From contig SKKH01000012.1 of NCBI GenBank assembly GCA_007121555.1, positions 1-64,000 on the forward strand: 64,000 bases of DNA, read 5' to 3'. Shown piece after piece: positions 50,648-54,226 of the stretch. Made by a program: the position numbers and the translations under genes. Source of the stretch: Gemmatimonadota bacterium (GTDB lineage Bacteria > Gemmatimonadota > Gemmatimonadetes > Longimicrobiales > Gaopeijiaceae). Under the pieces are notes generated by a model. It was not told the DNA's origin, did not search any database, and was given only the letters and a program-made list of their open reading frames with translations. The first letter of the stretch is position 1. Each line of letters opens with the position of its first letter.

Positions 50648-51565
50648 TTGGGTAGAGTCGAATTGGCGGTCATCGATGACGCGCCGTCCGTCGCACTCCA
50701 GGCCCTGGACGAACTCTGGTTCCAGGTCGCGGGCACCGTATGCAATCTCCGGTGCCACCACTGCTTCATCAGTTGTGCGCCGGACAACCACTCCTTCTGG
50801 TTCATGACCCGGGAGCAGGTGGCCCAGGCCCTGGAGGAGTCGGTCGAGCTCGGGGTGAAGGAGTACTACTTCACCGGGGGCGAGCCCTTCATGAACCAGG
50901 AGATGGAAGACATCCTGGTCGACACCCTCGCTCTCGGGCCGGCCACCGTCCTCACCAACGCCACCCTGATGCCGCCGCGCCGCGCCCGGCGTCTGGCCCA
51001 ACTCTCGAGGGCGTCCATCTACACCCTGGAACTCCGGGTCTCCCTGGACGGCATCACCCGCGAGATGAACGACGCCATCCGGGGAGAGGGAGCCTTCGAC
51101 CGCTGCGTGGACGGTATCGAGCAGCTGGTGAAGGTCGGGTTCCTCCCGATCATCACCTGCATGCGAAGCTGGCCCGAGCACGAGACCGAGCGATACCTGG
51201 AGGGCTTCCGACGCCTCCTTTCGACCGTGGGATACGAACGGCCTCGCATCAAGATCCTGCCCCCTCTCCTCATGGGGGAGGAAGCGAAGCGGACCCGGGC
51301 CTACGACGAGACCGAGCGGGTCACCCATGAAATGCTCGAAGGGTTCGACGAAGGGCAGCTCCTCTGCTCTCGGGCCCGGCTGGTGACCGCTCGGGGGGTG
51401 CAGGCCTGCCCCATCCTTCTCGAGGCTCCCTCGGCCCGGGTGGGAGACACGCTGACGGAGGGGGCCAGGACTCCGGTGACCCTGAAGGAATCCGCCTGTT
51501 TCACATGCTACCTTTCCGGAGCTATCTGCTCCAATTCTCCGTCTGGAGCCGGAGGGGATCGCTGA
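50648..51565 (+). CDS. Radical SAM protein with SPASM-like C-terminus
   Basis: About 305 aa from TTG 50648 (GAGGA eight bases upstream); the frame is open back to 50507. The [4Fe-4S]/SAM site is VCNLRCHHCFISC (CxxxCxxC), with YYFTGGEPFM and VSLDGITREMND typical of the fold. The C-terminus has further cysteines (ACPILLE, ACFTCYLSGAICSN), probably an auxiliary cluster. Stop overlaps the next ATG (TGATG), so it is made with the phosphoesterase-like protein. Substrate unknown; no small precursor peptide is visible. Confidence 0.85.
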   Translation: MGRVELAVIDDAPSVALQALDELWFQVAGTVCNLRCHHCFISCAPDNHSFWFMTREQVAQALEESVELGVKEYYFTGGEPFMNQEMEDILVDTLALGPATVLTNATLMPPRRARRLAQLSRASIYTLELRVSLDGITREMNDAIRGEGAFDRCVDGIEQLVKVGFLPIITCMRSWPEHETERYLEGFRRLLSTVGYERPRIKILPPLLMGEEAKRTRAYDETERVTHEMLEGFDEGQLLCSRARLVTARGVQACPILLEAPSARVGDTLTEGARTPVTLKESACFTCYLSGAICSNSPSGAGGDR

Positions 51566-52518
51566 TGTCGGGGCGTCCCTTTTCCCACCCGTCGGGGTCC
51601 ACGGATCCAGGAGACCGGAGCGCTTCGGGTCCTGGCCAAAATGCGAATCTGGATTCGCATTTTGGCGAGGCGCCCGGGACGAACGGCCGGAGGGAGGCTC
51701 CGGACTCGCGGGGGCTCGGCGATGTCGCCCTCCGGAGGGTCGCGGCGTTCGGAGGGGTCTACTCCAACCACCGGGCCCTCCGCGCCGCCATCCAGGACGC
51801 CCGGGAACGGGGGGCCGAGGCCCTTCTCTGCCTGGGGGACCTGGGAGCCTTCGGGCCCTCTCCTGACAAGACCGTCCAGATCCTGCGGGACGAGGGAATC
51901 CCGGTGGTCCGGGGCAACTACGACGATTCCATCGCGCGAGGGTTGGACGACTGTCAGTGCGGATATACCGATCCCCGGGACAACCACTACGCCAGGATCT
52001 CCTATGACTACACCCTGGCGAACACCGCCGGGGAGCACCGGGAGTGGATGGCCACCTTCCCCCCGGAGATCCGCTTCCGCCTCGGTGACCTGCGGGTGCT
52101 GGCCTTTCATGGGAGTCCGCGCAGAATGAACGAGTTCCTCTGGGAAACCACCACCCCGACCCACTTCCTCGAGAGAATGGCCCGGAAGGCGGGAGCCGAT
52201 GTGCTTCTGGGCACCCATACCGGGATCCACTGGAGCCGCCGACTGGGTGACAGGAGCTGGTACGTGAACGCCGGCGCCCTGGGTCGGCCGGCCAACGACG
52301 GCCGCCGGGAGGTCTGGTACGCCATGCTGGAGGCACAGGCCGGCGAGTCCGAACTGAAGGTGGAGTTCATCCCCGTGGAGTACGAGGTGGAGCTCCTGGC
52401 CGACGAAATGCGAGACGAGGGGCTCCCCGACGAGTTCATCGAGACGATCCGCACCGGGTGGTGGACCACCTGCCTCGAGGTGCTGCCCGGCAAGGAGCGA
52501 AAGGGCGGACGGTGGTGA
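51565..52518 (+). CDS. Metallophosphoesterase-like protein lacking the DxH motif
   Basis: 317 aa from ATG 51565 (TGATG overlap with the radical SAM gene). From about residue 55 the YfcE/calcineurin-like order is recognisable: CLGDLGAFGPSPDKTVQIL, VVRGNYDDS, VLAFHGSPR, LLGTHTGIHW and NAGALGRPAND. Motif I, usually SDIHGN, reads AAFGGVYSN, so both metal ligands Asp and His are missing. A DNA hairpin (51636-51665) is translated in the poorly ordered first 60 residues. Either a modified-metal-site enzyme or a non-catalytic binding protein; function unknown. Confidence 0.75.
   Translation: MSGRPFSHPSGSTDPGDRSASGPGQNANLDSHFGEAPGTNGRREAPDSRGLGDVALRRVAAFGGVYSNHRALRAAIQDARERGAEALLCLGDLGAFGPSPDKTVQILRDEGIPVVRGNYDDSIARGLDDCQCGYTDPRDNHYARISYDYTLANTAGEHREWMATFPPEIRFRLGDLRVLAFHGSPRRMNEFLWETTTPTHFLERMARKAGADVLLGTHTGIHWSRRLGDRSWYVNAGALGRPANDGRREVWYAMLEAQAGESELKVEFIPVEYEVELLADEMRDEGLPDEFIETIRTGWWTTCLEVLPGKERKGGRW
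51636..51665. repeat. Perfect 14-bp inverted repeat inside a gene start
   Basis: CCAAAATGCGAATC and its inverted complement separated by two bases, AT-richer than its surroundings. It lies in the N-terminal extension of the phosphoesterase-like gene and reads through in frame. Could be an old repetitive-element insertion or an attenuator hairpin. Confidence 0.7.
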
Positions 52519-52654: not shown

Positions 52655-54226
52655 ATGCAGGAAGATCTGGCCCCCGTCGTCCAGGCGGATGTCTGGGCGG
52701 TGGCCGCATTCGTCGGCTATCTCCTGATCCTGGTGGGGATCGGGGCCTATTCGGCCCGGTTCTCCTCGCGGGGCATCGGGAATTTCTTCGTGGGCGGACG
52801 GGTCATGAACCGGTGGGTCGTGGCCCTCTCGGCCGTGGTCTCCGGGCGGAGCGCGTGGCTTCTCCTGGGGGTCACGGGGATGGCCTGGCAGATGGGGGCT
52901 TCGGCGCTCTGGGCCGTGGTGGGCTACACGGCGGTGGAGTTCTTCCTCTTCTTCCACTTCGCTCCCCGCCTCCGGCGCTTCTCCGAGGATCGGGACTGCG
53001 TCACCGTCACCGACTTCTTCGCTGAGCGGTTCCAGGATCGCCGGGGCGTCCTCCGGATCTCGCTGGCTGCGGTGCTCCTCGTCTTCATGACCGCCTACGT
53101 CTCGGCGCAGTTCGTTGGCGGAGGAAAGGCCATCGGGGCCAGCTTCGGGTTGGATCCTCAATTCGGGGTGCTACTCACGGCCGTCATCGTCCTGCTGTAC
53201 ACGACGGTGGGTGGCTTCCTGGCCGTGAGCCTCACCGACACCCTCCAGGCCGCCTTCATGATCGTGGCACTCCTGGGGATCCCCCTGCTGGCCGTGACCG
53301 GCTACGGGGGATGGGGACCGGTCTTCACCGAGCTGGCGGTCTACCAGCCCGCACTCGTGGACGCGCTCTCTCTGGGAGGAGGGGCCTTGCTGGGGCTGGT
53401 GGGCATCGGACTGGGATCGCCGGGCAATCCCCACATCCTGGTTCGCTACATGTCCATCCGAGACGCCAAGGACCTCAGGTTCGCCGCCTGGACCGGGACG
53501 TCCGCGAACGTGCTGATGGGGGGTGGGGCGGTCCTCACCGGACTCGTGGGACGGGTCTACTTCCCCGAACTGGAGATGCTTCCGGCGCAGGACACGGAGA
53601 ACCTCTATCCCCTCCTGGCCCAGAGCCTTCTACCCTCGTTCCTCTTCGGGATGGTGGTGGCCTCCATCTTCGCGGCCATCATGTCCACCGCCGACTCCCA
53701 GCTGCTCGTGGGGGCCTCTGCGGTGGTCCGCGACATCTACGAGAAGGTGATCCGGAAGGGAGAGGCGATCCCGGACCGACGCCTCGTGATTCTTTCCCGG
53801 AGCGTGGTGGTCCTCCTGGTGATGGCGGCCCTGCTCCTGGGGTGGGTGGCAGAGGACCTCGTGTTCTGGCTGGTGCTCTTTGCCTGGGCCGGGCTGGGGG
53901 CAGCCCTGGGACCCACCATGCTCCTGGCGCTCTACTGGCGGGGGACGACCCGGGCCGGGGTCCTGGCCGGGGTGGCCACCGGCGCGCTCACCACCATCAT
54001 CTGGTACCTGACTCCGGCGCTGAGCGCACTCATGTACGAGTTGATCCCCGCCTTCGTCCTGGCGTCCGTCGTCACGGTGGTGGTGAGCCGGGTGACCCGG
54101 CCTCCGCCCGGAGTGGCTCGAGACTTTCAGATCATGGAAGGGGTTCTCCCAACGCCACCACCGCCGCCTCGGGCACGAGGTGGAGATCATCTTCCACAAG
54201 GTGGGCGGCCTCCGCGAGCACGATGA
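52655..54226 (+). CDS. Sodium:solute symporter (SSS/PutP-like)
   Basis: 523 aa with about 13 membrane helices. The PutP-like features are RGIGNFFVGGRVMNRW, FVGGGKAIGASF, GGFLAVSLTDTLQA, and the STADSQLLVGASAVVRDIYE segment around the Na2 site. It imports a sodium-coupled solute, possibly proline given pruA elsewhere in the window, but substrate is not provable. The last 35 residues are Pro/Arg-rich and irregular. Confidence 0.88.
   Translation: MQEDLAPVVQADVWAVAAFVGYLLILVGIGAYSARFSSRGIGNFFVGGRVMNRWVVALSAVVSGRSAWLLLGVTGMAWQMGASALWAVVGYTAVEFFLFFHFAPRLRRFSEDRDCVTVTDFFAERFQDRRGVLRISLAAVLLVFMTAYVSAQFVGGGKAIGASFGLDPQFGVLLTAVIVLLYTTVGGFLAVSLTDTLQAAFMIVALLGIPLLAVTGYGGWGPVFTELAVYQPALVDALSLGGGALLGLVGIGLGSPGNPHILVRYMSIRDAKDLRFAAWTGTSANVLMGGGAVLTGLVGRVYFPELEMLPAQDTENLYPLLAQSLLPSFLFGMVVASIFAAIMSTADSQLLVGASAVVRDIYEKVIRKGEAIPDRRLVILSRSVVVLLVMAALLLGWVAEDLVFWLVLFAWAGLGAALGPTMLLALYWRGTTRAGVLAGVATGALTTIIWYLTPALSALMYELIPAFVLASVVTVVVSRVTRPPPGVARDFQIMEGVLPTPPPPPRARGGDHLPQGGRPPRAR

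Follow-up and report, generated by a model that had tools for sequence, protein, structure and literature searches.

A pair of overlapping genes in a Gemmatimonadota bacterium probably belongs to an organoarsenical pathway that has not yet been described, in which a metallophosphoesterase-fold protein (MPP) with a thiol redox site and a single remaining metal site would work with a radical SAM enzyme that takes the role of ArsS. We put the probability of this reading at roughly 60%. The pair lies on the forward strand of the 64,000-nucleotide stretch of DNA that was analysed (positions 1 to 64,000 of contig SKKH01000012.1, assembly GCA_007121555.1), hereafter the window. The arsenic link of this locus comes from homologues: no arsenic gene was recognised adjoining the pair in the window, where the neighbours, named by eye, are a histidine kinase, a transglycosylase, an SRPBCC protein and an SSS symporter. 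The symporter gene (52655-54226) lies downstream of the MPP gene, as it does in several close relatives, and an SSS-like gene is found 5' of the radical SAM gene in Bacteroidota loci.

The radical SAM enzyme (50648-51565, 305 residues) matches Pfam PF04055 at 65.9 bits, above cut-off; its TTG start is the one chosen in the preliminary description, and the reading frame is open farther upstream. The MPP (51565-52518, 317 residues), a Car1-like protein in which one set of metal ligands is gone, matches PF12850 (Metallophos_2) at 42.4 bits, also above cut-off. The two genes overlap in TGATG (51563-51567), as had been reported, with the radical SAM stop codon (TGA, 51563-51565) sharing a base with the MPP start (ATG, 51565-51567). 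Between 51565 and the MPP domain there is no further in-frame ATG, GTG or TTG, so the N-terminal stretch of about 50 residues is probably translated. Within its coding sequence lies a perfect inverted repeat (51635-51666, 15-bp arms and a 2-base loop), which a genome-wide check found nowhere else in the genome; conservation of this stretch is limited to close relatives.

The preliminary description had listed GDLGAFGP, RGNYD, FHGSPR and GTHTG as motifs retained in the MPP and had noted that FGGVYSN replaces the DxH of motif I. The first three motifs and the motif I replacement are present as described. The string GTHTG is also there, but it does not represent an intact motif V, as a gap-free register shows GHTH changed to THTG (52213-52224), with His218 kept and the second His replaced by Gly220. 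In a family alignment with sisters and 10 outgroup proteins, motif I (GGVYSN in place of SDxHxN, 51751-51768) has Gly and Tyr in 51/51 family rows, against Asp and His in 24/24 sisters. The second position of motif V is Gly in the same 51 rows and His in 24/24 sisters and 10/10 outgroups. Asp92 of motif II, the bridging metal ligand (51838-51840), Asn118 in the GNYD of motif III (51916-51918), His182 of motif IV (52108-52110) and the first His of motif V are invariant, being the same in every aligned row. The Gly, Tyr and Asn of GGxYxN are likewise invariant in 92/92 aligned family members. One of the scan patterns included GGxYxN itself, and 20 extra members were thus taken from motif-independent whole-genome profile searches. 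All 20 carry GG[V/I]Y[S/N]N and C[Q/R]CGY without DxH, and THTG (or THSG) was seen in 19, one being missed by the pattern used. Across the 112 family members inspected the motif is GGxYxN and never DxH (112/112).

In MPPs generally, the three lost residues are ligands of the first metal only, and the four kept are second-metal or bridging ligands. Given these roles and the pattern of loss in the alignment, the MPP has lost one metal site whole and kept the other whole. One of the two ligand sets of a two-metal calcineurin-like phosphoesterase is thus gone, and the earlier suggestion of a changed metal set is supported by the absence of the Asp and His of motif I and of the second His of motif V.

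Absent from the preliminary description is an invariant CxC ('DDCQCGYT') that follows GNYD in the MPP. Its cysteines, Cys130 and Cys132 (51952-51960, invariant in 92/92), form a putative redox pair equivalent to Cys74/Cys76 of Car1. A third invariant cysteine, Cys303 (52471-52473, 92/92), lies in a family-specific tail, GWWTTCLEVLP, which is missing from the DxH sisters shown in the alignment. According to PMC12124457, Car1 of Rufibacter tibetensis (Shen et al. 2024) is an MPP-fold enzyme that reduces As(V) and cannot do so without Cys74 and Cys76; both cysteines are retained in a Paraclostridium relative about 40% identical to it. Our comparison with Car1 was made through the sequences of its relatives, not its own. 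A homologue on a Paraclostridium bifermentans plasmid, encoded in an ArsR-MPP-ArsM operon, has its CxC at 74/76, as do homologues in Hymenobacter, one Mucilaginibacter copy and a sister in the window's own genome (G000, locus L115).

The family CxC aligns with that of these ars-operon sisters and is absent from the outgroup MPPs. The sister clade keeps both DxH and CxC and is found mostly inside ars operons. In Gemmatimonadota, ArsR with ArsM, ACR3 or ArsA is adjacent to the DxH sister in most of the 20 loci fetched (at L115 the order is ArsR-ArsA-ACR3...MPP), and sisters with DxH and CxC also occupy ars operons in Pontibacter, Hymenobacter, Mucilaginibacter and Paraclostridium plasmids. In the tree the GxY clade is monophyletic (100/100) on a long stem, and the GxY family and the sisters together split from the outgroup at 78/89. 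The window family shares with the Car1 type and its ars-operon relatives the calcineurin-like MPP fold, the CxC in the loop past motif III and a deep clade, together with an HGSPR-NE(F/Y) region conserved in most. It differs from them in lacking DxH and the second His of motif V, whereas DxH and a complete GHTH are found in all ars-operon relatives examined; it also has the extra tail with the third invariant cysteine and has radical SAM and FAD partners, and the window locus lies outside any ars operon.

Further MPPs with a CxC were also noted. A distinct DxH-less MPP (GCVYGN, CGC, THTG) is encoded in an ArsR-MIP-ArsC-ArsM operon (L194, 4392-5255) and branches with the window family. DxH-type MPPs with CGC but GNHD occur near heat-shock or chaperone genes outside ars operons (L187, L188, L189), so the CxC is not confined to ars operons.

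The CxC, taken with the retention of one metal site and the loss of the other, makes the MPP most likely a reducer of As(V) or a holder of As(III), and not a two-metal phosphatase. The best placed alternative, although unlikely, is that it is a single-metal hydrolase in an arsenosugar-like pathway: the radical SAM enzyme would make a sugar or nucleoside intermediate, and the MPP would cleave phosphate or arsenate from it. The full ligand set of D92, N118, H182 and H218 is kept without exception, and the nearest solved fold is an Ap4A hydrolase. The AlphaFold2 model of the MPP (pLDDT 91, with both loops that bear the cysteines at about 61 to 66) is closest to SapH (3qfn), 3rqz and 1nnw, at TM 0.75 to 0.80. 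SapH/Spr1479, an asymmetric Ap4A hydrolase (3qfm/3qfn), keeps DxH and GHxH, unlike the window MPP, whereas Pyrococcus 1nnw likewise lacks DxH (NIAGN); in neither is a CxC visible in the aligned PDB regions, in contrast to the window protein. In line with this alternative, a radical SAM and phosphatase pair is also known from octosyl acid biosynthesis (PMC5365060). Such a hydrolase would, however, leave the invariant CxC and the third cysteine unexplained, and with all ligands of the other site gone, two-metal hydrolysis would be expected to be weakened or abolished.

A contig scan recovered 80 MPP loci, with phylum labels, taken from the records or the tree, of Gemmatimonadota, Planctomycetota, Bacteroidota, Ignavibacteriota, Calditrichota, KSB1, Verrucomicrobiota and Acidobacteriota, together with MAGs labelled Pseudomonadota; the gene set spans at least seven phyla. 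At 62 of the 80 loci a same-strand radical SAM gene is found no more than 6 kb away, directly 5' of the MPP gene in 59 of those 62. For 14 of the other 18 a radical SAM match was found elsewhere in the genome (13 full-length, 1 a contig-end fragment). Among 249 Gemmatimonadota genomes, all 34 that are MPP-positive also have the radical SAM gene. These data support the dedicated, conserved pathway that the preliminary description had proposed. It had named normal-DxH homologues beside the radical SAM gene, or an unconserved pair, as evidence to the contrary; since GGxYxN is present in all family members, the former were not found, and neither was the latter.

The radical SAM gene also occurs without the MPP in 19 Gemmatimonadota genomes, several times beside a DAK2-DegV gene, which counts against the organoarsenical reading, and some Gemmatimonadota hold it without the MPP or FAD gene. 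At six Gemmatimonadota-type loci (L010, L015, L016, L017, L019, L028) the gene immediately 3' of the MPP gene is a FakA/FakB-like DAK2-DegV fusion, and a gene of this kind adjoins the radical SAM gene in MPP-less genomes at four others (L107, L109, L110, L114). A role in lipid or fatty-acid metabolism was considered, given this FakA-like gene and the phosphopantetheinyl transferase, ACP and ketosynthase genes near some Gemmatimonadota loci. It was rejected because the genes follow lineage: across the 80 loci DAK2 matches are nearly confined to Gemmatimonadota, and phosphopantetheinyl transferase matches are few.

Using a simple gene caller and profile searches of the neighbourhoods, we identified a third partner, an FAD/NAD(P) oxidoreductase that is Pyr_redox-like and of no specific family. 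In Planctomycetota and some other groups its gene lies 5' of the radical SAM gene; it is present at 18 of the 80 loci, and it is a neighbour of the radical SAM gene also in cases where the MPP gene is located elsewhere. In 199 Planctomycetota genomes, strong matches to MPP, radical SAM and FAD proteins fall in the identical 10 genomes (again with kinship ignored), with the FAD gene away from the pair in three Planctomycetota genomes (G304, G417, G474). Among the 249 Gemmatimonadota genomes it is present in 30/34 MPP-positive and 2/215 MPP-negative genomes (Fisher 5e-32, kinship ignored), on contigs other than that of the pair; in the window's genome it lies on contig C49 of G000 (L157). One KSB1 MAG encodes the FAD and radical SAM enzymes as a single protein of 734 residues, followed by an ArsM-like gene and then the MPP gene. 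Searches of open-access papers yielded no description of the MPP, radical SAM and FAD gene set.

The Gemmatimonadota FAD gene is often next to a racemase-like gene and not to ars genes, which we count against the organoarsenical reading. At five loci (L157, L158, L159, L161, L169) it is clustered with genes that by eye resemble a GlcD/GlcF-like oxidase, an M20 amidohydrolase, a GNAT-like protein and a racemase (MenC/N-succinylamino acid racemase-like); the organic moiety of the product could come from genes clustered in this way. At another locus (L156, 1186-4217) the FAD gene is directly followed by an adenine-deaminase-like gene, again named by eye, a neighbour suggestive of adenosine-derived products.

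The homologues that connect the set to arsenic are of several kinds. In Planctomycetota-group genomes (L184, L185, L186) divergent radical SAM proteins carry a fused ArsM-type arsenite methyltransferase domain, which for L184 and L185 scores about 238 to 242 bits against PRK11873, slightly under its cut-off of 263. The gene following the L184 fusion encodes an arsenosugar glycosyltransferase of TIGR04283 (239 bits against a cut-off of 182). Scores of about 250 to 350 bits place these fused enzymes far from the main family, and no GxY MPP is present in the genomes that encode them; both points weigh against the organoarsenical reading. At L191 another divergent radical SAM gene is directly 3' of an ArsM-like gene. 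In the main family, the pair has an ArsM-like gene beside or close to it at L033, L056, L059, L065 and L071, and ArsM-like, radical SAM and MPP genes are adjacent at L152; altogether, ArsM-like genes were found near the pair at 4 to 5 of the 80 loci, plus L152. Glycosyltransferases of TIGR04282 (L051, 184 bits) and TIGR04283 (L009 and L056, 227 to 231 bits) also occur near the pair, and genes similar to one or the other were seen at L058, L062, L065 and L076.

ArsS itself, the arsenosugar radical SAM protein (TIGR04167), is matched by the window enzyme in the core only, at 59.8 bits against a cut-off of 300. The likeness to ArsS lies in context: some genomes place the window-type radical SAM gene beside the same ArsM subfamily and the TIGR04282/TIGR04283 glycosyltransferases, and at L163 that ArsM subfamily occurs with ArsS (427 bits) and both glycosyltransferase types. 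This neighbourhood is absent at the window and is found near relatives in several phyla. None of the 19 Gemmatimonadota genomes with ArsS contains the window-type radical SAM gene (P about 0.009, kinship ignored), a mutual absence that fits the radical SAM enzyme being an alternative to ArsS.

This context bears on the binding or scaffold role in a dedicated modification pathway, here taken to be unrelated to arsenic, that the preliminary description had offered as one option for the MPP-like protein. We consider that role improbable, and place it after the hydrolase. The loss of one metal site, the strict pairing with the radical SAM gene and a window locus without any recognised arsenic gene all agree with it; against it, the CxC is common to the ars-operon sisters, ArsM and glycosyltransferase genes occur as neighbours or fusions, and the third partner is a redox enzyme. 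The CxC, the Car1-type sisters, the FAD partner and the ArsM fusions point instead to thiol redox chemistry on an arsenical. There is, further down the scale, a small chance that the set serves to degrade or detoxify organoarsenicals, with the radical SAM enzyme breaking the C-As bond while the MPP and the FAD enzyme keep the arsenical reduced. The arsenic-related context would be identical in that case, and the window's genome has a separate ars operon (L115), but the arsenosugar-type glycosyltransferases and the ArsM fusion fit synthesis better.

The radical SAM enzyme carries the CX3CX2C motif for the SAM-binding [4Fe-4S] cluster (C32/C36/C39, 50741-50764), invariant in 41 homologues. The C-terminal cysteine cluster noted previously holds up as a set of five residues, C240, C254, C284, C287 and C294 (51365-51529), all invariant in the 41 aligned homologues; they form a twitch/SPASM-like set that may bind a putative auxiliary cluster. 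ArsL, the radical SAM enzyme of arsinothricin synthesis, has 428 residues and three conserved cysteines, probably for one cluster (PMC8552651). Window-type enzymes share with it the CX3CX2C motif and the presence of ArsM in one gene set; the window enzyme differs in its 305 residues and its five extra invariant C-terminal cysteines. The best NCBIfam score of its core, 102.8 bits, is to the Rv1681 family (NF049973), far under the cut-off of 380 and with the C-terminal part unmatched. The AlphaFold2 model (pLDDT 85.9) is nearest to SkfB, BlsE, anSME and MoaA. Maturation of a SPASM-type peptide (RiPP) or protein with an unlinked precursor is highly improbable: the model resembles SkfB, anSME and SuiB and there are weak profile matches to sactipeptide and other maturases, but these lie far under their cut-offs, with no curated RiPP maturase profile above cut-off among the best 25 listed, no precursor was noticed in the neighbourhoods read, and the partner genes are not RiPP genes, in agreement with the earlier view that a RiPP is not shown.

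We propose the following scheme for the organoarsenical pathway. Through its CxC the MPP would most likely bring an arsenical from the pentavalent to the trivalent state, starting from arsenate or from a methylated or organic As(V) compound, with the remaining metal site holding the arsenical substrate; alternatively, As(III) may be held on the thiolates, and it is tempting to speculate that C303 might be the third thiolate of such an As(III) site. Electrons would come from the FAD/NAD(P) oxidoreductase, either for re-reduction of the CxC disulphide, a task that may otherwise fall to the cellular thiol system, or for the radical SAM step. The reduction and disulphide recycling steps are modelled on homology to Car1; that the window MPP has lost the DxH site which Car1-type relatives keep counts against a role in reduction. 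ArsM, where present, would methylate As(III). The genomic context suggests that the radical SAM enzyme would most likely then form a C-As bond on the trivalent, often ArsM-methylated, arsenical in the place of ArsS, and glycosyltransferases may complete the product in some lineages. In the window organism, too, arsenic would be the substrate.

The set of MPP, radical SAM and flavoprotein genes is present in Gemmatimonadota, Planctomycetota, Bacteroidota and others, abundant bacterial groups for which, to our knowledge, no organoarsenical biosynthesis has been described. We tentatively suggest, at slightly less than even odds, that a radical SAM enzyme, an MPP with one metal site acting as a thiol reductase and a dedicated flavoprotein constitute a third organoarsenical route, besides those of ArsS to arsenosugars and ArsL to arsinothricin, leading to an arsenic natural product or lipid. 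The natural fusions, of radical SAM with ArsM and of the FAD enzyme with radical SAM, show which proteins to co-express, and this makes the question of substrate directly testable. If the organoarsenical reading is correct, another radical SAM lineage would be active in biological carbon-arsenic chemistry, and the MPP would be a clear example from nature of the two-metal hydrolase fold bearing a thiol redox site, with one of its metal sites given up.
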